From assembly GCF_018860755.1 (NCBI RefSeq), contig NZ_JAHKPW010000070.1, forward strand, positions 261,100-325,099: a DNA stretch of 64,000 nt, given 5' to 3'. Positions 3,091 to 41,628 of this stretch are shown piece by piece. How positions within the stretch are numbered: position 1 is the stretch's first letter; the number at the start of each line of letters is the position of its first letter. Below the pieces are notes generated by a model. That model was not told where the DNA came from, did not search any database, and was given only the letters and a program-made list of their open reading frames with translations. Both the position numbers and the translations under genes were made by a program. Origin of the DNA: Colwellia sp. D2M02. Its GTDB lineage: Bacteria > Pseudomonadota > Gammaproteobacteria > Enterobacterales > Alteromonadaceae.

Positions 3091-3924
3091 ATGCAACAAC
3101 AATTATCAGAACTCGAAATTATAGAACACATTAATAACCGTCAATGCTTTACCGCGACTATCATCGGCGGTGCTTTTACATTAAAAATAGCTGAATACTT
3201 ACCAGCAATGTCAGCTGCGATTCATGATGGCGGTAACCTTAGAGCGTCATTAAGTGAAAATTGTTTACTTGACCAAACATCACGCTATTACGAAGAAGAC
3301 CCCTATACTGGCAGCTTTATTCAAGAGCAAGCCATCACACTAATTGCCCATGATTCACGTTATGAATATGACTTAAACCGTAATACACAAGAGTGTGTCT
3401 ATGAAACGGCTTGGGGAAAAGATATTTGGCAAACACCATTAACAAGTGAAGAGACTAATGAAAGCAAAGCAAAACATGCGCAATTTTATCGTATTGTGGC
3501 AGCGATTGTTGAAGCACTTGTTGAAGACTTTGGTCAATGTATTGTTTATGACAACCACTCGTATAACTATAAAAGACATGAACGCCAAGATTTACCGGTG
3601 TTTAATTTAGGTACAAGCTCAGTCAAAAGCGATAAGTGGCGACCTGTCATTGAACGCTGGTTACATGATTTACAAAGTATGCAAGTCGACGGTATTGACG
3701 TTACAGCCGCTGAAAATGACATTTTCTATGGTAAAGGCTATTTAGCGGGCTTTTGTCATGGTAAGTATGACAATGTGTTAGTACTGGCAACAGAAACTAA
3801 AAAAGTTTTTATGGATGAATTAACTGGCGCTCCTGATAGTGTGGTACTACCGTCATTGCAAACGCAATACAATAATACAGTCGCTAAACATACGCAGTGG
3901 TATATTAGCGAATTTAAAAACTAG
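3091..3924 (+). CDS. N-formylglutamate amidohydrolase family protein
   Basis: A 277-residue cytoplasmic protein. The pattern HDGG near residue 47, YEYDLNRN, YRIVAAIVEALVEDFG followed by VYDNHSYN, then NDIFYGKGYLAG and LATETKKVFMDE fits the FGase (PF05013-type) zinc amidohydrolase fold. The usual catalytic sites (H.GG, D.NR, a metal-binding H/E set) can be followed. Members cleave N-formyl- or N-acyl-glutamate; the true substrate is not set by sequence. The next gene on the strand is gamma-glutamyltransferase, so both neighbours act on glutamyl compounds, though 67 bases separate them and each could have its own promoter. Confidence 0.68.
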   Translation: MQQQLSELEIIEHINNRQCFTATIIGGAFTLKIAEYLPAMSAAIHDGGNLRASLSENCLLDQTSRYYEEDPYTGSFIQEQAITLIAHDSRYEYDLNRNTQECVYETAWGKDIWQTPLTSEETNESKAKHAQFYRIVAAIVEALVEDFGQCIVYDNHSYNYKRHERQDLPVFNLGTSSVKSDKWRPVIERWLHDLQSMQVDGIDVTAAENDIFYGKGYLAGFCHGKYDNVLVLATETKKVFMDELTGAPDSVVLPSLQTQYNNTVAKHTQWYISEFKN

Positions 3925-3991: not shown

Positions 3992-5785
3992 ATGTTCTCT
4001 TTTGCGTCACCTAAAATGCCCTATTTATTAGCTAGCAGCATTATAGCCAGCCTAGCCCTTATACCTGAGCAAGTGAATGCCCAAAACCCTTCTGTAATTC
4101 CAACCGTAACTACTACACAAATAAATGAGCAAAAAAGTATTGTTAATTATTACGATATTCATCACCCCGTGATTGGCCGTAAAGGTATGGTGGTGAGTCA
4201 AAGCGATTTAGCAAGTAAGGTTGGTGCCGATATATTGCAGCAAGGAGGCAATGCAATAGACGCTGCCGTCGCAGTTGGCTTTGCATTAGCCGTAGTGCTA
4301 CCTCGAGCAGGTAACTTAGCTGGTGGTGGTTTTATGTTGGTGCACTTAGCCAAAGACGACAAAACTATTGCAATTAATTATCGAGAAGAAGCACCAGAAG
4401 CTGCTCATAGAAACCTATTTTTAAATGAATTAGGTGAAGTTGACACCGATAAAACCTTACAAAGCTTATCTGCATCAGGTATTCCAGGAACGGTTGCGGG
4501 CTTGGCTCATGCATTAGATAAATATGGCACTATGTCTTTAGCACAAGTTATTGCTCCTGCCATTGAACTAGCTACTTCTGGCTTTGCTGTCACTGATGAC
4601 ATGCTTTATATTATTGAGAAAGAGCTTGATAATTTAAGACGTAATGCAGAAAGCTGTCGCGTATTTTTCAAAAAAGACTGCCAATTATATCAAGTTGGCG
4701 AGCTATTCAAGCAGCCTGATTTAGCCAATACGTTAAGTTACATTGCTAAGCATGGCGCTAAGGGCTTTTATCAAGGAGATATTGCAACCAAAATAGTGGC
4801 TGAGATGCAAACCGGTAATGGCTTAATTACTCTGAAAGATTTAGCTAATTACCGTGTTGAGGAAATGCAGCCGCTTACAGGGACTTTTAATGGTTATGAT
4901 ATTGTCACTATGCCACCACCAAGCTCTGGTGGTGTGCACTTATTACAAATGCTAAATATGCTAGAGCAGCTGCCCATACAGGCGTTAAGCCAGGGGAGTG
5001 CTTCTATGATGCACTTACAAGCAGAAGTATTTAAACGCGCTTATGCCGATAGAAGTATGCACTTAGGTGATCCAGACTTTGTTCGAGTACCAACACAAGG
5101 CCTAATTAGTAAAAGCTATGCTAAAAAGCTTGCACAAGGTATATCGCTTGAGCGCGTAACCCCGTCAGCTGAAATATCATCGGGACAGCCAAGTTTACAT
5201 GAAAGCCCTGATACCACTCATTTTTCAGTGATGGACAAAGCGGGTAATGTTGTTAGCAATACATACACTCTTAATCATTATTTTGGCAGTGGTATAACGA
5301 TTCCAGGAACCGGCTTTGTCATGAACAATACCATGGATGACTTTTCCGCTAAGCCAGGTACTGCTAATAGTTACGGTTTAGTTGGCGGCGAAGCAAATGC
5401 TGTAGCAGCACGTAAGCAACCTTTAAGCTCTATGACGCCGACTATTGTCTTTAAAAATAATGAGCCTTATATTGCCACCGGTACGCCAGGGGGAAGTAAA
5501 ATTATTACCGCAGTTTTCCAGCAGCTAGTGAATGTTTTACTGTTTGATATGAATATTAGTGAAGCGACTAATGCCCCACGTATTCACCATCAGTGGTTAC
5601 CCGAGCGTTTACTGGTTGAACAAGATATTGCTGCAGACTCGATAACGTTACTTAAAATATTAGGGTATAACGTGGTTGAGTCTAAATCCTTAGGAAGTTT
5701 ACAAGCCATTATGCTAAGAGATGGCGTTTATTTTGGGGCCGCTGATCCGCGTAGACCAAATGCTAAAGCGGTTGCGGTTAATTAG
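3992..5785 (+). CDS. ggt: Gamma-glutamyltransferase (gamma-glutamyl transpeptidase)
   Basis: A 597-residue precursor. Residues 1-30 form a Sec signal peptide (cut expected after VNA). The Ntn-hydrolase proenzyme cleaves itself before the Thr of TTHFSV at about residue 408, giving a large and a small subunit; that Thr becomes the nucleophile. Other family marks are GMVVSQ, GGNAIDAAVA, NLAGGGFM, PPPSSGGVH, NNTMDDF and GTPGGSKI. The enzyme sits in the periplasm and hydrolyses or transfers the gamma-glutamyl group of glutathione and related peptides. Length and all key motifs are normal. It is followed by two hairpins that separate it from a convergent transporter gene. Confidence 0.96.
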   Translation: MFSFASPKMPYLLASSIIASLALIPEQVNAQNPSVIPTVTTTQINEQKSIVNYYDIHHPVIGRKGMVVSQSDLASKVGADILQQGGNAIDAAVAVGFALAVVLPRAGNLAGGGFMLVHLAKDDKTIAINYREEAPEAAHRNLFLNELGEVDTDKTLQSLSASGIPGTVAGLAHALDKYGTMSLAQVIAPAIELATSGFAVTDDMLYIIEKELDNLRRNAESCRVFFKKDCQLYQVGELFKQPDLANTLSYIAKHGAKGFYQGDIATKIVAEMQTGNGLITLKDLANYRVEEMQPLTGTFNGYDIVTMPPPSSGGVHLLQMLNMLEQLPIQALSQGSASMMHLQAEVFKRAYADRSMHLGDPDFVRVPTQGLISKSYAKKLAQGISLERVTPSAEISSGQPSLHESPDTTHFSVMDKAGNVVSNTYTLNHYFGSGITIPGTGFVMNNTMDDFSAKPGTANSYGLVGGEANAVAARKQPLSSMTPTIVFKNNEPYIATGTPGGSKIITAVFQQLVNVLLFDMNISEATNAPRIHHQWLPERLLVEQDIAADSITLLKILGYNVVESKSLGSLQAIMLRDGVYFGAADPRRPNAKAVAVN

Positions 5786-5895: not shown

Positions 5896-8067
5896 TTAAA
5901 ACCAGCCTAGTACATCGTGCATAATAGACCAGCGAGGTTGTATAGCTTGTGGGTTTTCTCCCAGTATCCAGTGGTTATAAACCTCTTGTTCAAAGCCATT
6001 TTCTTTTTTAAGTTTCAGCCATGTGTTAATAAATTGCACATAATCTAGTTGCCCTTTAGGTAGTACAAAGCCAACAGGAGCTCTTAAGCTTACCCCTTTA
6101 GGAATAATAGCAGAGTAATTAGGGTATAGCATTGCCCATGCTGATGCCGCCTCGGTTGAAAACACTAACGCATCGACCTCAGGATATTTACCTCTAAGAA
6201 AGCCACGGACGTTATCTTTGCCTATTTCGGTTAACGTTGCATTAGGAAAGTGCTCTTTTACCATATCTTGATAATACTTGGTACTACCAACACCTAAATG
6301 TAAATTGGGCATCTCTTTCATTGCACTGAGCTCTGAAAACTCATCACGCCTTGAGTCACTTAGTAATAGCCCCGCGGTATGGTAGGTATAAGAGTCTGAA
6401 AAAGCGACATTAAGTGCACGCATTGGCGTTATAACATGGCCGCCAATGCTCATATCAATACTGCCATTACTGAGTAACTCAGCTTCATCTTCACGGTCGG
6501 TTATATTGTACAGCGCAATGGTGATTTCAAGATCAGCTGCTAGTTCATTTAGCATCTCCACATCAAAACCCACCATACGATTTTCATTATTACGAAACAC
6601 ATAAGGTAGGCTCGCATCGTAATAGCCTACACGTAGTATTTTTCGCTCCATAATAACTTCCAAGCGAGGTAGTTTTTGTTCATCTTCGTATAATGGGGTC
6701 AGCTCAGAAGGTCGTTCAATTTTAACCGGTTGCTTCATTGGCACCATAGTTTCAAAAGTTTTTACACCTTCATATTTGTATGGAATTAAAGAGCTTAAGG
6801 TAATACCTGTCGCTACCATAACACCAAAAGTAACCGCTAAATGTACGCCAATTGCTTGCATTAAACGGTGCCAGCGTAGTTTTTTGATCACAGCAGAGGC
6901 AACAAGTAGCGTTACCACAAAGCCATGTAAAGCAGCTAAGCCTGTAGCGAATCTAGCGGTGACAACACTACCGAGTAAATACAGTTGAAATTGGTCTGCG
7001 GGTAAATCAAAAAAATCTAATAAGAATGGGATGGCAACGGCCATACTACCAAAGGCAGTTAAAGCGCCCATCACGACAAAAGAAATATAGTCATTAAAGG
7101 CGAGAGGCGAGCCAACATACCAAGCTGAGAATAGAATAAAACCTAAGCCTAATAAGGTACCTGTACTAGGAAAGCTGTAGGCGGTTGGCACCAATACATC
7201 AACAGTTGAGTCGGTTTCCTCGCATTGCATGTTATGTTCAGCGAGTAAGGCTTTACTGCGCTCAATTATCATCGGCAGAACAACCAAAACAGTACCTGTG
7301 GCGGTTGCGGTTATTACCGCTTCACCAGCGGTTGACATAATTTGACGGTATGAAAACGGTGTCGCCCAATGAATAAGTAAAGGTAAAAATACTAAAGCGA
7401 GCAAGGCAGCTGCGATGATATAGACCCATAAAAATACCTGTAGACGACCTAATTCTTCAACGGCTAACGTACCTGCTGCAGAGGCTGATATGGCAAAAAT
7501 ACCTAATGGGGCTAATTTAGCCACATAGGATGCGACTTTCATTAAGCTATCACCAATGTTGGTGGTTAGTGTTAGAAAGGTTTCCTTATTTTTGACCTGT
7601 ATTAAGGCTACCCCCATAAGCAGTGAAAATAACACTACTGCTGGGACTATAGTTCCAGAAAGTGATGCAAAAATATTACTCGGAATATATAACTCTACAA
7701 AGTTAAACTGGCTCGGCTCAGCAACCATGCTTGAGCTGAAAAAACCTGCTGTTTGCCAGTTAGGGTAGGCAAGTGGTAATAATAGTAATGTTGCCATTAC
7801 TGATAACCACATGATAAGAATAACTTTAACCGCTCTCATACCAATACGGCTAGCCATATTACTGTCTAAACGTCCTAAACCACCAATAATAGAAACTAGC
7901 ACATAAGGTAAAACAGTCATTTGTAGTAAACGAATATACACGTTACCAATAACTTCAAGCTGACCCGCAGGCTCGCCGACAAAAATCCCAGTAAATATAC
8001 CTAAACATAAGGCAATAATAACGCGCTGAAAAGGACTCAGTTTTTTATAAATTTTTACGATTGGCAT
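5896..8067 (-). CDS. Dicarboxylate/amino acid:cation symporter fused to a periplasmic solute-binding domain
   Basis: A 723-residue inner-membrane protein. Residues about 1-430 are a sodium/dicarboxylate symporter (SDF, PF00375-like) with many membrane helices and serine/threonine-rich hairpin regions (for example FPSTGTLLG and ATATGTVLVVLP). After a linker rich in Pro and Glu, residues about 470-715 form a bacterial extracellular solute-binding domain family 3: ILRVGYYDASLPYVF, GFDVEMLNELA, and SIDMSIGGHVITPMR are typical. The binding domain should sit in the periplasm, tethered to the transporter. SDF carriers normally have no binding protein, so the fusion is unusual. The ATG start is preceded by GGAGAG. 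The gene is single, convergent with ggt and divergent from the SGNH hydrolase. Confidence 0.9.
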   Translation of the reverse strand: MPIVKIYKKLSPFQRVIIALCLGIFTGIFVGEPAGQLEVIGNVYIRLLQMTVLPYVLVSIIGGLGRLDSNMASRIGMRAVKVILIMWLSVMATLLLLPLAYPNWQTAGFFSSSMVAEPSQFNFVELYIPSNIFASLSGTIVPAVVLFSLLMGVALIQVKNKETFLTLTTNIGDSLMKVASYVAKLAPLGIFAISASAAGTLAVEELGRLQVFLWVYIIAAALLALVFLPLLIHWATPFSYRQIMSTAGEAVITATATGTVLVVLPMIIERSKALLAEHNMQCEETDSTVDVLVPTAYSFPSTGTLLGLGFILFSAWYVGSPLAFNDYISFVVMGALTAFGSMAVAIPFLLDFFDLPADQFQLYLLGSVVTARFATGLAALHGFVVTLLVASAVIKKLRWHRLMQAIGVHLAVTFGVMVATGITLSSLIPYKYEGVKTFETMVPMKQPVKIERPSELTPLYEDEQKLPRLEVIMERKILRVGYYDASLPYVFRNNENRMVGFDVEMLNELAADLEITIALYNITDREDEAELLSNGSIDMSIGGHVITPMRALNVAFSDSYTYHTAGLLLSDSRRDEFSELSAMKEMPNLHLGVGSTKYYQDMVKEHFPNATLTEIGKDNVRGFLRGKYPEVDALVFSTEAASAWAMLYPNYSAIIPKGVSLRAPVGFVLPKGQLDYVQFINTWLKLKKENGFEQEVYNHWILGENPQAIQPRWSIMHDVLGWF

Positions 8068-27973: not shown

Positions 27974-29269
27974 CTAAGCCCTATCACGACTAGGTCGCGG
28001 GGGGTTATTAGTAAATTTAAAATAGTGTCGTGCTTTACGGAGATGACGTAATGTAAATATTCCCCAAAGCGTACCAAATGGTATTAAGAACAAAGCAACA
28101 CAGGCAATAGGCCCAACGCAATAGAATGCTAATTTATTGTTTTGGCAAAGCTTGAAGCATAATACGAATTGGCTAATCACAAGCACTAAATTTCTAATAG
28201 TCGAATTGCTAAACAACAGACCGTCTTGCGTTGTAAACAAAGAGAAAAAGAAAATAGCGAGTAATATTAGACACCATAAAATAAATAATATTTTTAATTT
28301 GAATAAGCTGTTCTTTGCGTTTTCATAAACTGCTATTTCCTCTTCTGAATAACGATTAATTGCGCTAACGCCCCCTTGAACAGCGGCTAGTGACTTATTC
28401 TCGTCAGATGTAGCATTATCAATGTATTCTATGATCGAATCTAATGCTTCTGAATGTGCGAATACGCTGAGTTTTTCCCTCTCTTCTTGCCATAAAAATG
28501 TGTCATTCAGTAACAATATTGAGTTTTTATCTAAACCGTCTACTGAGTATTTTTTATGTTTTTTTCCGTTGGAAATTGCGTTATATAAGGCGTAAATTGC
28601 GTTAATTAAATATAAACTCACTTTAAAGTGAATATCCTGATTAAGTAGCGCTTTATTTTGACTTAGCTCACTCCAGAGTTGAAATTGAATATGTGAATTA
28701 TCTTCAGATAAAATTTCGTCGCATAGTTGTAAAATGTCGTCTAAATTATCAATGCCTTCTTGCTGGCTATTGGTCACTCCAACATCCTGTGGGGTTTCAA
28801 CTAAATTTTTCTCATTCGAGTTAACTAAATTTTGAAAGGAGTTCTCAATAATTTCGTCATGTAGTTGCTGGTCGCTGATTGTTGATTCATCAGTTGCAAG
28901 TTGATCTGCAAGGTATTCATTTTTATCAAAAAGTAATGTTTCTTCGAGGTCAATATGTGTGCTTTCATTAATTAACTCGTTGCCGAAATATGCTTGCTCC
29001 TCTTCTTTATGTAAAGGTGCTCGTTCTTCTTCATATGAGGGCACATCTTCCTCTTGTGTAGAGAAAAACGTTTGTTCCTCAATGGCCATTGTTGTCTGAC
29101 TAGCCGCAATTTTTGCGTACTTGATTGCGCTTTTATAAGCGTTGTGCAGTAAAGAAAACTCTGTGGGTTTTTCGTCAGGGCGAATAACTTTAACACGAGC
29201 AGCATAGGCTTTTTTAATCAAGCCAATTTCAGTCGTTGGCTCTATCTGTAATTGTTCCCAATCAACCAT
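27974..29269 (-). CDS. J-domain-like co-chaperone with C-terminal membrane segments
   Basis: A 431-residue protein read from the ATG at 29269, which overlaps the last base of the hscC stop (TAATG coupling); a TTG three codons earlier is also open. Residues 1-50 form a J-domain-like fold: DWEQLQIEPTTE, IKKAYAARVKVI, RPDEKPTEFSLLHNAY. The canonical HPD is RPD. A long acidic middle follows, rich in Glu, Asp and Gln. Near the C-terminus two or three hydrophobic stretches (ILFILWCLILLAIFFFSLF and a later pair) suggest membrane anchoring. It is the natural partner of the adjacent Hsp70, as J proteins DjlB/DjlC are for HscC in E. coli. Confidence 0.78.
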   Translation of the reverse strand: MVDWEQLQIEPTTEIGLIKKAYAARVKVIRPDEKPTEFSLLHNAYKSAIKYAKIAASQTTMAIEEQTFFSTQEEDVPSYEEERAPLHKEEEQAYFGNELINESTHIDLEETLLFDKNEYLADQLATDESTISDQQLHDEIIENSFQNLVNSNEKNLVETPQDVGVTNSQQEGIDNLDDILQLCDEILSEDNSHIQFQLWSELSQNKALLNQDIHFKVSLYLINAIYALYNAISNGKKHKKYSVDGLDKNSILLLNDTFLWQEEREKLSVFAHSEALDSIIEYIDNATSDENKSLAAVQGGVSAINRYSEEEIAVYENAKNSLFKLKILFILWCLILLAIFFFSLFTTQDGLLFSNSTIRNLVLVISQFVLCFKLCQNNKLAFYCVGPIACVALFLIPFGTLWGIFTLRHLRKARHYFKFTNNPPRPSRDRA

Positions 29270-30954
29270 TAAAACCAACTTTCATTATCGAATGAATCTA
29301 AAGCATCACCGAAAAGCACCTGTTCTCGTTGTATTTCTCTGGGATTTTGGCGGTCTAGTGTATGCTCAAAACGAGAGATCAATTGAGCAATTTCTTCTCT
29401 TTGATAACCAAGGGAGCTACTGTACATACGTTCGGCCCTCGCCACTAAAGCTCGATTTTTTTCACTGTCTCTAGGGTGAAATTTGAGCTTTTGAAGCACT
29501 TTTTTAGCACGAGTTATTTGCTCAGCTGTTAATGCACCTGGTGCGTTATGAATTACTTTATTGTAGGTTTGTCCGGTAGTTTTAACTTTAACGTCGACTT
29601 CCAGTAAGCCACTCATATCGTAACTATAACGAACGGTAATAGGTTGATGTCCAGCTTTGTCTTTAGGCACAGCTACTTTTAATCTACCCAAGAAAATATT
29701 TTTATCTACTTGCCTGTGTTCACCTTGATATATACCAACCTGCATCGCTGTTTGATTATCCGTAGAAGTGCATAAATCGCGTTCCACACTAATCGGCACA
29801 ATAGAGTTTCGCTCGATAATAGGGAGCATTTGACCAGGGTTATCAAAATCATCAAGCACCTCAGTTCCTAGTGTAAAAGGGCATACATCGGTTAAGACAA
29901 TGTCATCTAGCGCTTCGTTTTTCTCTACCAGCCCAGCTTGAACACCTGCTCCTATTGATACAACAAGATCTGGATCTAAATTACATGAAGGTAAGCGGCC
30001 AAAGAGCTTACTGACCATTGAACGCAATGCTTTTAGTTTTGTTGAGCCACCAACTAAAATAACATCATCAATTTCATTTGGGTGTAAGTTGGCATCTCGT
30101 AGTGCCTGTTTAACAGGTTGCTGCACTCTATAGAGCAATGGTGTTATAACGCTATAAAACCACTCTTGCTCTATTGTTAAATCGTATGTTTTATTTTGAT
30201 ATGTCACCTGAAGTTTATGACGCAACTCATTGTCAATATTACACTTAATTGTTTCTAGCTTCATGAGCGCTTGTTGCCGCTCTTTTCGGGAAAACAGTTT
30301 TTTATCCAAGTTGTTATCTATACACAGTTGTTCAAACATTACTGTAACAAAGTCTTCACCACCCAGGTAATTGTCACCAGCGCTGGCGTGTACTTCCATA
30401 ACACCTTCAAAAAATTCTAATATTGATACGTCGAAAGTGCCACCACCCATATCTAAAATAATAAAGGTGCCCTGTTGGCGATTATTTAAACCATAAGCCA
30501 TTGCTGCGGCTGTTGGCTCGTTTATGAGCCTTCTAACGGTTAGCCCAGCTAGTTCCCCGGCAAGTTTAGTCGCATAGCGTTGGTTTTCATTAAAATAAGC
30601 AGGCACGCTAATAACCGCTTCTGTGACTTTCTCCTCTAAAAATTGTTCGGCATCTTCAACCAGAGAACGCAATATAAAAGAAGACAACTCAGGTGCTGTA
30701 AAGGAAAGGCCACCAATTTCTAACGAATGCTCTGTGCCCATAACACGTTTAAACACAGCAACTGTACTTAGTGGATGACTGATTAGTCTTTGCTTAGCTG
30801 TAGTGCCTACAATAACATTTTTGTTATCGTCAATGGCTACAACAGATGGAGTTAAAAATTTATTTAATCGATTGGGGATTTGCACTAACTCTGCATTTTT
30901 CCAAACACAACATGCACTATTAGTTGTGCCTAAATCTATACCTATAATGGCCAT
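29269..30954 (-). CDS. hscC: Hsp70-family chaperone HscC-like
   Basis: A 561-residue Hsp70. The start is the ATG at 30954, chosen because AAGGA lies eight bases upstream and the protein then begins MAIIGIDLGTTNS; a longer frame adds 19 unsupported residues. Nucleotide-site motifs GIDLGTTNSACCVW, LDMGGGTFDVSIL and ILVGGSTKLKAL are intact. HASAGDNYLGGEDF, LTDVCPFTLGTEV, and IIERNSIVP match HscC rather than DnaK, and the C-terminal lid is short. HscC is a specialised Hsp70 that works with its own J proteins. It leads a five-gene run with a membrane-linked J protein and three unknown genes. Its clients here are unknown; the nearness of T6SS effectors is suggestive only. Confidence 0.92.
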   Translation of the reverse strand: MAIIGIDLGTTNSACCVWKNAELVQIPNRLNKFLTPSVVAIDDNKNVIVGTTAKQRLISHPLSTVAVFKRVMGTEHSLEIGGLSFTAPELSSFILRSLVEDAEQFLEEKVTEAVISVPAYFNENQRYATKLAGELAGLTVRRLINEPTAAAMAYGLNNRQQGTFIILDMGGGTFDVSILEFFEGVMEVHASAGDNYLGGEDFVTVMFEQLCIDNNLDKKLFSRKERQQALMKLETIKCNIDNELRHKLQVTYQNKTYDLTIEQEWFYSVITPLLYRVQQPVKQALRDANLHPNEIDDVILVGGSTKLKALRSMVSKLFGRLPSCNLDPDLVVSIGAGVQAGLVEKNEALDDIVLTDVCPFTLGTEVLDDFDNPGQMLPIIERNSIVPISVERDLCTSTDNQTAMQVGIYQGEHRQVDKNIFLGRLKVAVPKDKAGHQPITVRYSYDMSGLLEVDVKVKTTGQTYNKVIHNAPGALTAEQITRAKKVLQKLKFHPRDSEKNRALVARAERMYSSSLGYQREEIAQLISRFEHTLDRQNPREIQREQVLFGDALDSFDNESWF

Positions 30955-31211
30955 AGTCAGATTCCTTCTGAATAATTTAATTCCAATTTTTACGCCCCAA
31001 GATATTACCAATTTAGATTGAGTAAGTCAGTAAAATAAAAGGAATTTTTTATTGCGAATCATCCAACTAAATTGAAACTAAATTGGTTATGCTGCTTCAT
31101 TGCTGTGTTTGGCACTTTAGCTTTAGCTCAAATCCAATTAAAATTAAATAGCCTATGGTCATCACAAACATAAAAAGCTTGTTGAATGACAACTGATAGT
31201 GCCGAAGGTAA

Positions 31212-37195: not shown

Positions 37196-37873
37196 TTAAC
37201 CAAAGGCTTTTTGGATAAGGCCATCTTTGTCGAGTAGTTCTTTTTGTCCAAATGAAGCAAGCATTGATAAATGAGCAAAAATATTAACTTTGTTCGTATT
37301 CTCTAACTTAGGCTCACCACCTAAAAATAACGCTGGCTCAAAGGCGTACATTTCATCATATGCGAGAGGTTTGTGCATGATTTTACATTGTTCAAATAAT
37401 GGCTTTTCTTCAGGGTCTTTAATATCAAGAGGTTCGGGGCGTTTTAAATAAAAGAAAAGTTGTATAGCATCATCCATATTGCCTTTTGCAATATTTTTCT
37501 TATCACCTTTTTTTTCAATAACCCAACCGTTAGTTGTATCTATTATATATTTAAATCCATTGTTCGCGCCCCACAAATATAATTCACCAAATGCGCTACG
37601 GGCAATAACATAATAGGCATCTTGTTCAACTATTTCAGTGTCACCTAACCATGCTTCAAGTACACCCTCATAATCATCAGGGTTTACTACCCAAAACAGA
37701 CCATTCTTAAAACCGCAAAAGCCATATTCTTGCCAATAGGCTAATAATCTATCTGGTAGTTTACCTTGAAATTTTTTGATAGTTTCACTCGTAACACTTT
37801 GGCTAAAAGTAGGGGAGCCAAACTGTTCTAAAAACCACTCAAAGTCTTCATCTAATTCAAATGTAGTGTTCAT
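37196..37873 (-). CDS. Tdi1-like immunity protein (GAD-like + DUF1851)
   Basis: A 225-residue protein. Residues 1-110 form a GAD-like domain (FEWFLEQFGSP, IKKFQGKLPDRLLAYWQEYG, GFKNGLFWVVNPDDYEGVLEAWL). From about 110 a DUF1851 domain follows (VIARSAFGELYLWGANNG, ending ALFLGGEP and HLSMLASFGQ). This pair is the known architecture of Tdi1, the immunity protein for the Ntox15 DNase Tde1 of Agrobacterium. Its ATG overlaps the last base of the vgrG stop codon (TAATG), so toxin and antidote are made together. It should act in the cytoplasm by binding the DNase. Confidence 0.9.
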   Translation of the reverse strand: MNTTFELDEDFEWFLEQFGSPTFSQSVTSETIKKFQGKLPDRLLAYWQEYGFCGFKNGLFWVVNPDDYEGVLEAWLGDTEIVEQDAYYVIARSAFGELYLWGANNGFKYIIDTTNGWVIEKKGDKKNIAKGNMDDAIQLFFYLKRPEPLDIKDPEEKPLFEQCKIMHKPLAYDEMYAFEPALFLGGEPKLENTNKVNIFAHLSMLASFGQKELLDKDGLIQKAFG

Positions 37874-40800
37874 TATTTACACCTTTGTAATTCTATATTC
37901 ATTTTAGCATTTGGTCCTATAGTATCGAAAGCCTTTTGAGCAGAACTGTCCATTCCTGCTACTCTATTGGATTTAGACCATTGCGAGCCTAATGAAGAGT
38001 TTACATTTTTATTACCTAATTTACGTATTTTATCCTTACCTCCAGCAATAAGGTCAGGATCGTGTAATGCAGCTAATTGTGACATTTGTTCTTTTACTTT
38101 TTTAGAAGCTATAGATATGGCTTCTTTACCTCTTATATTTTTATTTCTAAGACTCTCTAAGATAGAGTCTGTCATCTCATCGGCTAATTTTTTTCTGGCA
38201 CTTGCCTGAGCGTTCCCGTTCTTGGTTAACATTTTTCGAGCTTTTGTGTGACCGTGCTTATCCGTTAGATCTGTGAGGATTTTTCGGTTACTAAGGTACT
38301 CACCAACAGTCATTTTATTTATACCAGCTTGCTGTGCTTTTAGCTGTTTATAAAACTCTTTTTCTAATGCTTTTTCCCCACCCTTAAAGTTTTTGGCTAA
38401 ATCCGGGCCAGGAGTGAAACATGGTGGTTTATATTTTTTCATCGGTATGAGTTTAGGCTTAGCCCCTTTCAACTCATTCCCTTTCGGCGCTTTCAACTGA
38501 TCAGTTTTAACTTTCTTAATATCGCCTGTTTTACCCACATGTGGTATTTCACCCGTGTATTCATCAAGGGCTTTGCTAAATTTTTTCTCAAGGTCTTGCA
38601 TGCCCTTTTGCATGCCGAGCTCCACTTTAGGAAGTACTTCGCCTAGCTTTTGGCTCATCGAGGCAATACTGTCTATAGCGGAATTAGGCAATAATAACTT
38701 CATAGAATAACTACTGATAATGCCATCCAAGGCATCTTTTATCGCAATCACTTTTTCTTTAATTAGGTCGGTTGCTTGCTTGGCTAAATCTGCCCAGTCA
38801 ATGTCGCGTAAGAATTTAATGGGGTCGCCTTTGCCTAGTTCACGTAACACGGCAAGGGCAGGAGTAAGTACTTCCCCTGCATTTTCAATAATGACTTTGC
38901 CGACGCCTTTAATGGCTGAGCCTATCACAGGAACAAAACCAATACCTGTCAGTGCTAAGGCAATCCAGCCTGCAGTGTCGTTGGTTTCATTGTCATCGGT
39001 TAATAACATGACATTGGCACAAACATCGCGCACGTCCATCACTTGGTCAATAACGGGTATCATTGAAATAATGGTACCGACTACAATTTGTGACGTAGAC
39101 GGGTTTTTATTGAAATCGCCTTGCAGCGTGCCCCATAACCAATCACCTGCACCTGCGGCGATATCTGCCGCATCACTTAATAAGCTGGTATCACCACTTT
39201 CAACCATCTCAATGGCTGCTTTGGGCGTTATTTGCCCATAAAGTGGATTAGGTGTGGTGTTTTCAATAGGGGCATAATCACGTGCGTCTTCGCCGTATTG
39301 TACCGTAAACTGTCCTGGAGGCATGCCCGATAAGGTAGCTTTACCGCTGGTATCAAGCGTTCCTGTTAATTCGGTTCCATCTTTGAGTATTAAGGTATAA
39401 GGGGCATTTTGTACTGGGTCACCGTCTTGATAGCTGTATTCTAATTCAATGTCTTGTGTAGGGGCTGTTAACGATGCGCCAGCGACACTAAAATTAGCGA
39501 CTCGCCCAATAGTCGGTGGTTGAATAGCACTTGGCTCGCTGGCACTGATGGGGGATTCAATATCGTATTCAACACTGCCATCAAAAATTATCATTTGACC
39601 GTCTAAGGTCAGCATATCACTGCCGATAAGCTCTACATTACCACTGCTGTCGAGCTTTATCATACCGTTTTGGTTAAACAGGGTAATGTCACCACTGCCA
39701 GTGCCTTCTATACTAATATTACCATCAGTATTGATAAGGGTTGAGCCTTGTGGCGCGCTAATAGATAAGTTGCCTTGTGCGGCTTCCCATACAATAGCGT
39801 TATTGGCGGTTACAGTTAAGCTGCGGGCGGTTAGCAGTGAGGTTGAGCCTTGCGATTCAAGTAAAATATCTTTAGCGGTATGATTTACTTGCGTGGCACT
39901 TTGTATATTTAAAGAGTCTTGTTTGCTGGTGCAATCGGCTTCTACGGTAATACCAACGCTATTTTTAGCATCTATGTGTTGATAGCCCCCAACACTGACA
40001 TCAATATTACCTTCTTCGGTGTCAAATAACAGGTCGGTAGCGGCATGAAAACTGATACTGCCAATCCGTGATAGCCATTGAATATATTGCTCAGCTTGGG
40101 TATGCGCATTAAGCTCAAAGTAATGTTCACCTGCGAGCGTTTGTAAAATAACGGTTGGAGCAATGTCATCATCATCAAAGCGTAATTCGTGACCTGAGCG
40201 CGATAAAATGCGGTTATGTAGTGAGTTTTCACTGTTAACAACACTCGGCTGGTCATCGTTCATGTCAAAGCCTATGAGGTAGGCTTGACTAGGATCATTA
40301 TTTAAACAACCAATAAGTACTTGTGCGCCGTTTGCTAAGGGGAAGTGCCAGCCTGTGGCTTGTGGTTGATTCGCACAAGCGTAATTAACGAGTCGTCGTA
40401 ACGATTGACTGCTGGTTAATGGCGTTTTGGCTATTTCATCGAATCCCAATTTGGTAAAGTATTCGCCTGTATCGGTTAGTGTTGCGAAAGGCGTGACTGA
40501 CTCTACTTTGGCTGAAAAAACCATAGGTAAAGGGGGAAAGTCTTTAAAAGGTAGCTTGTAAGGTTGTCCTCGTGGTATTGCTTTAACAACACAATGGTAT
40601 TTAGTGAGGCCGTCTTGGCTTGTTTCATCTGAGGGCTGTTGACAAAAGTGCTCTACCGAGACACAAATATAATCGCCACTGGCATTAATACCTGAGGTGT
40701 CGTGTAATGAAAATGAGCAACCAGCAAAAATATCAGGTACGTTACCTGTTAAGGTAATTAGTTGTTCAAAACGATTTAATGCCAAGCTTTGACTTTGCGC

Positions 40801-41628
40801 CACATTATCCGCTTCATTGGAGCTGGTTGATACCGGTTGAGCAAAGTTATGCGCAGCTAAATCTTCACCTTCTAAACGATACTCTTGTGATATAGCACTA
40901 GCTAAACCTGTACCTACTTGCGTGGTATATTGACACTGAGTAAAGCCAACAAAACCTTGGGCGGCGACATCACTTACCAATTGGCTCGGTGCAATTTCAG
41001 GGTTAAAACCAACGCCGTGATGTACTTGTAATAAACCTCGGTCAAGGTAGGGGCTTGACGAGTTGTTGTCACTAATAACAATGGCAGCATCACTTGCAGC
41101 GGAATCAAAACGGTAAAATAAACCGTACTGGCGAAGTAGGCGATTGAAAAAAACAAGGTTTGATTCCATTGCCTGTACGCATTGTTTCAAATAAGGCAAT
41201 GGTGTGGCCAGCGTGAACTGAATTTGACTATTTTGATAGCCAGCATCATTAAGCAATAACGTTAAGATATCGCTCAGACCCGTATCAATGAATATACGTG
41301 AGTGTTGTGTAGTACTCAGTAATGAAAGTCTTGGTTTTAAGGTAAGTTGGTAACGTCTTTTTAAACTGTCAACCTGCGCTAAGTTAGCACCAATAATCCC
41401 TTTATCTTCAACACTTAATAGCGTTGAATTGAGTTGGCGTTCATAGCCGTCACTGGCAATAAAATTTAAGCAAACAATACTGCCTAAACCTTGTTGTAGT
41501 GGTTGTATATTAAGGGTATCAACAATAACAGTGTAGTGTGATTGTTCACTTAATATGTCGGTACCTTGCAAGTAATTTGCAGCATAACTAGCGTTGGCAC
41601 AAGTGATCAATAAACGGGGGGAAGCCAA
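37873..41628 (-). CDS. Specialised VgrG with C-terminal Ntox15 (Tde1-like) DNase
   Basis: A 1251-residue evolved spike. Residues about 1-460: VgrG gp27/gp5 core (FIDTGLSDILTLLLNDAGY, LANGAQVLIGCLN). About 465-690: DUF2345 beta-helix (LSRSGHEL, then SVGITVEAD and many short strands). About 720-790: an Ig-like segment (GTELTGTLDTSGKATLSG). About 850-945: a helical region with a hydrophobic hairpin (GWIALALTGIGFVPVIGSAI). About 950-1050: pre-toxin linker (LPKVELGMQKG, EYTGE, LKAPKGNELKGAKP). About 1055-1251: Ntox15, with PCFTPGP and the HxxD motif in ALHDPDLIAGG near residue 1187. The tip should cut DNA in target cells. It is divergent from the T6SS operon and coupled to a Tdi1-like gene. Confidence 0.92.
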   Translation of the reverse strand: MASPRLLITCANASYAANYLQGTDILSEQSHYTVIVDTLNIQPLQQGLGSIVCLNFIASDGYERQLNSTLLSVEDKGIIGANLAQVDSLKRRYQLTLKPRLSLLSTTQHSRIFIDTGLSDILTLLLNDAGYQNSQIQFTLATPLPYLKQCVQAMESNLVFFNRLLRQYGLFYRFDSAASDAAIVISDNNSSSPYLDRGLLQVHHGVGFNPEIAPSQLVSDVAAQGFVGFTQCQYTTQVGTGLASAISQEYRLEGEDLAAHNFAQPVSTSSNEADNVAQSQSLALNRFEQLITLTGNVPDIFAGCSFSLHDTSGINASGDYICVSVEHFCQQPSDETSQDGLTKYHCVVKAIPRGQPYKLPFKDFPPLPMVFSAKVESVTPFATLTDTGEYFTKLGFDEIAKTPLTSSQSLRRLVNYACANQPQATGWHFPLANGAQVLIGCLNNDPSQAYLIGFDMNDDQPSVVNSENSLHNRILSRSGHELRFDDDDIAPTVILQTLAGEHYFELNAHTQAEQYIQWLSRIGSISFHAATDLLFDTEEGNIDVSVGGYQHIDAKNSVGITVEADCTSKQDSLNIQSATQVNHTAKDILLESQGSTSLLTARSLTVTANNAIVWEAAQGNLSISAPQGSTLINTDGNISIEGTGSGDITLFNQNGMIKLDSSGNVELIGSDMLTLDGQMIIFDGSVEYDIESPISASEPSAIQPPTIGRVANFSVAGASLTAPTQDIELEYSYQDGDPVQNAPYTLILKDGTELTGTLDTSGKATLSGMPPGQFTVQYGEDARDYAPIENTTPNPLYGQITPKAAIEMVESGDTSLLSDAADIAAGAGDWLWGTLQGDFNKNPSTSQIVVGTIISMIPVIDQVMDVRDVCANVMLLTDDNETNDTAGWIALALTGIGFVPVIGSAIKGVGKVIIENAGEVLTPALAVLRELGKGDPIKFLRDIDWADLAKQATDLIKEKVIAIKDALDGIISSYSMKLLLPNSAIDSIASMSQKLGEVLPKVELGMQKGMQDLEKKFSKALDEYTGEIPHVGKTGDIKKVKTDQLKAPKGNELKGAKPKLIPMKKYKPPCFTPGPDLAKNFKGGEKALEKEFYKQLKAQQAGINKMTVGEYLSNRKILTDLTDKHGHTKARKMLTKNGNAQASARKKLADEMTDSILESLRNKNIRGKEAISIASKKVKEQMSQLAALHDPDLIAGGKDKIRKLGNKNVNSSLGSQWSKSNRVAGMDSSAQKAFDTIGPNAKMNIELQRCK

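Follow-up and report, generated by a model that had tools for sequence, protein, structure and literature searches.

An SDF-family carrier joined to its own family 3 binding protein in Colwellia: a rebuilt pocket and a possible elevator-type importer

Among elevator-type carriers, the SDF family has been studied most thoroughly, and many structures of its members are known. We analysed a stretch of 64,000 nucleotides of DNA from Colwellia sp. D2M02 (here called the window), in which a single gene encodes an SDF carrier followed in the same chain by a binding protein (SBP) domain of family 3. This raises the question of what such a carrier would do with a binding protein of its own, and of what it could carry. 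The features concerned are listed here, with residue numbers referring to the fused protein.

5896–8067, minus strand: whole gene of the fused protein (SDF part, ninth helix, SBP domain), 723 aa, ATG start, no internal stops
6883–8040, minus strand: SDF part with the glutamate-transporter fold, residues 10–395, from the alignment of the model with 9bgz (Pfam PF00375, residues 15–390, 169.3 bits against a cut-off of 27.9)
7156–7170, minus strand: P-S-T-G-T, residues 300–304, where canonical carriers have the TM7 loop NMDGT
6997–7068, minus strand: HP2 region (extracellular gate), residues 334–357, six residues shorter than in canonical carriers by profile alignment
6919–6975, minus strand: TM8 region, residues 365–383, with A371, A374, A378 and G382 for D394, R397, N401 and D405, and a new conserved R372
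6787–6873, minus strand: extra (ninth) membrane helix, residues 399–427, seen in the model, hydrophobic and with a positive-inside flank
6670–6786, minus strand: poorly conserved linker, residues 428–466
5953–6669, minus strand: SBP family 3 domain, residues 467–705 (Pfam PF00497, residues 478–701, 71.2 bits against a cut-off of 26.4)
3992–5785, plus strand: gamma-glutamyltranspeptidase, between the fusion and the FGase-like gene (PF01019, 574.5 bits)
3091–3924, plus strand: FGase-like amidohydrolase, 277 aa, a stand-alone partner by linkage and co-occurrence (PF05013, 54.5 bits against a cut-off of 28.9)

An earlier note on this DNA, made from the sequence alone, had read the gene as an SDF carrier and a family 3 SBP in one chain. 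This is confirmed: both Pfam domains lie in the single 723-residue minus-strand frame, and SDF and SBP_bac_3 are the only domains that Pfam finds there. The borders given in the note (1–430 and 470–715) were slightly off, the SDF part ending at about residue 395 and the SBP domain running from about 467 to 705, with the helix at 399–427 between them. The same genome has two further SDF genes, both unfused, which score 433 and 225 bits in Pfam, compared to 172 for the fusion.

The note had also named what would refute it, namely a sequencing error that had fused two separate genes into this frame. Such an error, whether in sequencing or in assembly, is ruled out by orthologues within the genus, by 98 distinct fused proteins (the alignment set, each covering at least residues 30–700), and by the lack of an unfused member in 369 genomes of the class. 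In the genus, a full-length orthologue in a single frame, with 73–81% identity, is present in 22 of 36 other genomes, and in one more (G035) it is split across two contigs. Together with the window's own copy this makes 24 genomes with the fusion. A second fused paralogue with 30–33% identity is found in 17 genomes of the genus, with an internal TAG in one. It occupies a fixed site (L037–L043, L195, L197) behind a methionyl-tRNA synthetase-like gene, identified by eye from its sequence, and before an RcsF-type lipoprotein gene, identified with Pfam in L037. A genome from another family of the same order (G055) has three fused copies.

Outside the genus, the fused family is widespread but patchy, which answers the earlier note's call to check its distribution. 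It is present in 10 of 369 genomes in an even draw from the class, and in 6 of 398 (seven matches) in an even draw from the phylum. The phylum draw also gave SBP-only matches in 13 genomes and an SDF-side match in one (L189), which proved to be canonical. A scan covering a single genome for each species gave 463 stretches encoding some relative, and the best 80 of these were used as a set of loci. In 75 of the 80 both domains are present in full, while the SDF part is truncated in four (L088, L114, L116, L119) and one (L124) stops before the SBP domain. The best 80 comprise 56 from Pseudomonadota, 13 from Myxococcota, five from Thermodesulfobacteriota, one each from Verrucomicrobiota and Acidobacteriota, and four unassigned; many are metagenome bins, and the phyla with a single case should be taken with care. 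The earlier note had placed the protein in seawater; marine records are indeed present, but this is too narrow, as the titles also include sediment and reactor-type MAGs.

When a profile of the SDF part only was run against the 369 genomes of the class (E up to 1e-25), no unfused member of the subfamily was found. The 15 matches were 12 members and three ordinary SDFs (413–442 aa, 92–103 bits). Ten of the 12 members lie in frames of at least 695 aa, and in the other two (G358, G323) the frame runs into the end of a contig. The two kinds are clearly separated, with members at 469 bits or more (except for one contig-end-cut member at 217) and ordinary SDFs at 103 or less. Up to four candidates per genome were scored in this search, and two or three in the two draw scans. 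Over the 98 fused proteins, SDF and SBP distances correlate with r = 0.85, implying that carrier and binding domain have kept together in evolution. A tree (quick search) built from the SDF parts of 32 fused and 27 ordinary proteins separates the two sets on one branch with an SH-aLRT of 100, a split partly built in by the choice of motif-filtered controls. None of 12 phage records contained a full-length match, and 2 of 271 matching plasmid records contained a full-length relative.

The SDF part retains the complete fold. An AlphaFold2 model from 57 rows has a mean pLDDT of 81.5 and a pTM of 0.66, with residues 115–138 below 50. Its SDF part superimposes on 9bgz with Z 37.6 and rmsd 2.9 over 352 residues (residues 10–394), and all eight helices and both hairpins of the elevator fold are present, with Z of 33–38 to GltPh, EAAT, ASCT and ancestral carriers over roughly residues 1–395. 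The VIA-align rows cover residues 1–395 only, the SBP part having been checked with Foldseek and by sequence.

Canonical SDF carriers have eight helices, and both their termini are inside. In the model, the helix at 399–427 comes after the last SDF helix. This segment has a 19-residue Kyte-Doolittle mean of at least 1.6 in 98/98 fused proteins, and the loop preceding it is more positive than the stretch following it, again in 98/98. A ninth helix with this positive-inside signal should place the C-terminal SBP domain on the outer face, where it would be able to work.

The pocket is a different matter. The family profile was aligned (hhalign, probability 99.9) with a profile of 27 unfused SDFs of the class. 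In this alignment P300-S-T-G-T304 falls on the NMDGT loop, a gap of six residues opens in HP2, and A371, A374, A378 and G382 correspond to GltPh D394, R397, N401 and D405, the last of these pairs being read from a TM8 alignment without gaps, since hhalign had inserted a gap at that column. N310, D394, N401 and D405 are found in none of the 98 fused proteins and R397 in only one (L126), so that 97 of the 98 lack all five. All five are present in 27/27 of the unfused controls, which had been chosen by a motif filter requiring canonical-like letters, with 4 of 31 loci dropped. In those four the TM7 loop varies and the TM8 Asn is kept, and the canonical profile scores them far above the family profile. 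P300 is invariant in the fused proteins (98/98).

These are the residues on which ordinary transport depends. In the available part of PMC12668577, D394 holds the amino group, R397 the side-chain carboxylate and N401 the main-chain carboxylate of the substrate; the signature of Na+ coupling is given as S/T at 92–93, N310, M/S at 311, D/E at 312 and D/E at 405, and that of H+ coupling as A/L/I/V/M/F at 92, L311 and N405. The fused protein has M86-W87, P300, S301, T302 and G382 at the Na+ positions and fits at position 311 only. For the H+ signature M86 fits, and S301 and G382 do not. Throughout the family, the S/T pair of TM3 is mostly L or M, and W. The substrate residues of SLC1 amino acid and dicarboxylate carriers are likewise replaced, by A371, A374 and A378. 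Since both these and the cation sites are absent, ordinary cation symport of amino acids or dicarboxylates appears unlikely, and the suggestion in the earlier note that these may be the substrates is not supported. A version in which glutamate, aspartate or C4-dicarboxylates are taken up with high affinity in ordinary symport with Na+ (or H+), improved by the SBP domain, has the Pfam membership and the fold in its favour; with both signature sets missing, we give it a slim chance. By the same argument, the pocket does not support the name ‘cation:dicarboxylase symporter family transporter’ that an annotated plasmid relative bears.

Is the SDF part then simply dead? Its conservation argues against this. 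Majority identity reaches 0.73–0.78 in residues 41–60 (TM3-like), 181–200, 301–320 (TM7) and 341–380 (HP2/TM8), which are the best conserved parts of the chain, compared with 0.54 for the SBP domain and 0.36 for the linker. R372 is retained at 90% or more in A2. In six pairs, dN in the SDF part is 0.06–0.12 and is lower than dN in the SBP part in all six; dS is above 1.7, near saturation, in the five pairs where it could be computed. A conserved pocket together with a low dN points to selection for function, presumably with another substrate or ion. A dead carrier is thus disfavoured, and the SDF part would be a different transporter. Related to this is the idea that a non-transporting SDF trimer serves only as a membrane platform for the SBP domain, which would act as a scavenger store or supply another transporter as its subunit. 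It would account for the loss of every tested ion and substrate letter. However, a bare anchor would need only one helix, whereas here the whole elevator fold is retained, hairpins included, and the pocket is more constrained than the rest, as is the SDF part relative to the SBP domain in the dN values. We therefore consider it distinctly unlikely.

The SBP domain has the two-lobed fold (Foldseek probability 1.00 to both 9e2b and 5t0w), and its relatives are binding proteins of the amino-acid type: 9e2b with E 3.5e-14, 5t0w with a TM-score of 0.82 on the target, and 5jos with E 1.8e-22 in phmmer. In GlnBP, R75 is the Arg that binds the ligand carboxylate and D157 the Asp that binds its amino group. 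The Arg is matched by R550, while the Asp is replaced by S637. This position is Ser in 39 of 40 close relatives. R550 is kept in 29/40, 25/27 and 10/14 members of the nearer groups, compared with 3/17 in the far group; the ligands of near and far groups probably differ, and the far group's SBP domain may bind something else. The replacement of the Asp by S637, taken together with the amide-cutting partner described below, makes an N-blocked or amide-bearing amino acid-like carboxylate the simplest guess for the ligand, rather than a free acidic amino acid. As a further possible clue to the ligand, the window was searched with Rfam for a riboswitch, with no matches. In a promoter scan, sites were no more frequent than in shuffled sequences.

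The commonest partner among the neighbours is the FGase-like gene. Among the best 80 of the 463 stretches it adjoins the fusion, or lies one gene off, in 32, of which 18 are not titled Colwellia. It is convergent with the fusion in 25 of these 32, directly downstream on the same strand in five, and upstream on the same strand in two. In the five downstream cases the genes overlap, by the four bases ATGA in four and by one base (TAATG) in the other. The presence of three gene orders in different lineages argues that the association reflects function rather than an inherited order. Within the genus, and using a profile built from genes found beside fusions, 19 of the 24 fusion-bearing genomes were found to have a stand-alone FGase, and none of the 13 others (hypergeometric 2.4e-6, ignoring kinship). 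One genome (G019) keeps the gene about 13 kb from the fusion. In the class draw a stand-alone FGase occurs in 3 of 369 genomes, all three with the fusion; the other FGase matches there are in frames of 663–677 aa. The partner is not obligatory for the family, as it is missing from 7 of the 10 fusion genomes of the class draw, from 5 of the 24 in the genus, and from the fetched flank in 48 of the best 80 loci.

The Pfam name does not prove the reaction. The partner scores 18.8 bits with NCBIfam HutG TIGR02017, against a cut-off of 278.75, and a search for its closest solved structure gave none (best E 0.84). By eye, it has no signal peptide. Of the FGase matches in frames of 663–677 aa, the one examined is a different gene in the window's own genome (C30, L202, 5192–8213); it encodes an FGase domain joined to a MATCAP-type peptidase (PF08014) and overlaps an upstream gene for a glutathione-synthetase-like ATP-grasp protein. 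It has relatives in other genomes, and from the domains it would form with the ATP-grasp gene an uncharacterised pair of amide-making and amide-cutting enzymes, separate from the partner of the fusion.

Relatives of the gamma-glutamyltranspeptidase adjoin the fusion in four other loci, and its membership of the system is doubtful. A gene for a RimK-type glutamate ligase occupies the position behind the fusion in nine of the best 80, most of them from Myxococcota and Thermodesulfobacteriota; the nine were grouped by blastp cluster, with only L100 identified (TIGR00768, 212.8 bits against 143.4), and we treat the ligase as a lead only. Judged from their families, the FGase-like and RimK-type partners would both handle amide bonds of glutamate-like compounds. 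Genes for a transposase, PLD, DUF4136, DUF4340, peroxidase, radical SAM, HGSNAT-like, DUF481 and methyltransferase proteins beside the fusions gave no lead.

The neighbours also bear on two readings in which the protein is not primarily a transporter. SBP-type domains are common as sensors, which helps the idea of a transceptor in which a solute is detected by the SBP domain and the altered SDF part relays the state of that domain to the other side of the membrane, while transporting little or nothing. That the canonical residues for substrate and ions are missing would fit this. So would the finding in G055 that one fused copy is directly followed, in the same orientation, by a GGDEF-EAL gene and a second copy by a member of that gene's blastp cluster (L034, L035), which suggests a link to c-di-GMP. 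However, that cluster is a very common family and is placed elsewhere in its four other loci, the fused protein has no cytoplasmic output domain, its pocket region is the best conserved part, and the commonest partner is a metabolic enzyme rather than a regulator. A sensor is a minority reading, unlikely but with some real chance of being right, and together with the platform it forms the chief alternative to transport. SBP-like domains also gate channels in glutamate receptors, those such as GluR0 having the same pairing of domain types, and there is an anion path in EAATs. Binding to the SBP domain could by analogy open an ion route through the SDF part, and the altered HP2 gate would be in keeping with this. 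The enzyme partner offers no reason for a channel, and we regard a ligand-gated path as very improbable.

On the basis of these observations, we hypothesise that the fusion imports its cargo by an elevator mechanism with the help of a binding protein tethered to the carrier, and that this cargo is a carboxylate, N-blocked or amide-bearing, which is then cut in the cytoplasm. We give this reading a probability of roughly one half. The SBP domain would catch a scarce small carboxylate outside and pass it to the open outer gate of the SDF carrier, which would move it inwards by an elevator stroke that makes no use of the usual Na+ sites. In lineages that have the partner, the cytoplasmic FGase-like amidohydrolase would then split an amide bond of the cargo, and this cleavage would also trap the product and so give the transport a direction. 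We infer hand-over, transport, substrate and direction from the domains, fold, topology signals, site loss, conservation and linkage set out above.

A secondary transporter that depends on an SBP combines an elevator-type membrane part with a dedicated SBP, and the fusion has both, in one chain and never apart in the 369 genomes. The available part of PMC12344293 (Commun Biol 2025) counts only TRAP and TTT as such systems before its own TAXI-GltS, which bears out the earlier note's statement that SDF carriers do not normally use binding proteins. TAXI-GltS is the nearest system found. It pairs an SBP with a secondary carrier of the elevator type, one that otherwise functions on its own, and the two are fused in some Lachnospiraceae, in 14 entries of about 10,000 GltS in InterPro according to that part of the paper. 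It resembles the present family in having an elevator-type carrier paired, and sometimes fused, with an SBP. It differs in that the carrier is GltS (ESS family) with a TAXI-type SBP at the N-terminus, whereas here an SDF carrier has a family 3 SBP at its C-terminus, joined through the extra helix. TRAP and TTT share SBP-dependent secondary transport (PMC12344293, PMC8276074, both in part), but have unrelated membrane parts and DctP/TAXI/Bug-type SBPs, as a rule on separate chains. The Pfam result gives no DctP, TAXI or Bug-type SBP and no DASS-like or GltS membrane part in the fused protein.

Compared with the SLC1/DAACS carriers (GltPh, GltTk, DctA, GltP), the likeness is the SDF fold over residues 10–394; the differences are nine helices instead of eight, the SBP domain, the missing NMD loop, the missing Asp/Arg/Asn/Asp of TM8 and the shorter HP2. 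The structure 9bgz is that of AncInt, an uncoupled ancestral transporter that, in the available part of PMC12668577, keeps its binding residues and is uncoupled by allostery. The likeness is therefore in outcome at most, as the sites of the fusion are lost. ABC importers with a fused SBP (GlnPQ type) likewise have a family 3 SBP covalently attached to the membrane part, and the PDB match 6h30 is such a chain, but the fusion lacks an ATPase and has a different membrane fold.

In the open-access literature searched, from which subscription papers are mostly missing, no description of an SDF-SBP fusion was found, and the open-access papers found do not state that the SDF family uses a binding protein. 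Coupling an elevator-type transporter to a catcher protein in this manner may be new. The available part of PMC12344293 asks whether delivery from an SBP to a carrier is made possible by something in the elevator mechanism, and calls for further classes on which to test this. The SDF-SBP family would provide one, and as both parts are in a single chain it should be easy to express. Its members are also naturally occurring carriers with the glutamate-transporter fold that lack every known ion site, and are thus relevant to how coupling can be lost. The partner enzyme is a concrete lead to the ligand.

The window also contains genes for type VI secretion. A T6SS cluster spans 41922–62508, where the frames tested include VasE, IcmF, the VipB sheath, a ClpV-type ATPase and a VgrG-type hub, and the region before it contains an HSP70-like protein of 580 aa (29269–31011, minus strand). 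A T6SS Tle1-like phospholipase domain protein (PF09994; 1929–2993, plus strand) lies two genes from the neighbourhood of the FGase partner. At 37873–41628 on the minus strand there is a VgrG-like hub with a C-terminal Ntox15 domain, which from this domain is likely to be an antibacterial T6SS effector, and the 225-aa frame that abuts it (37196–37873) may be its immunity gene.
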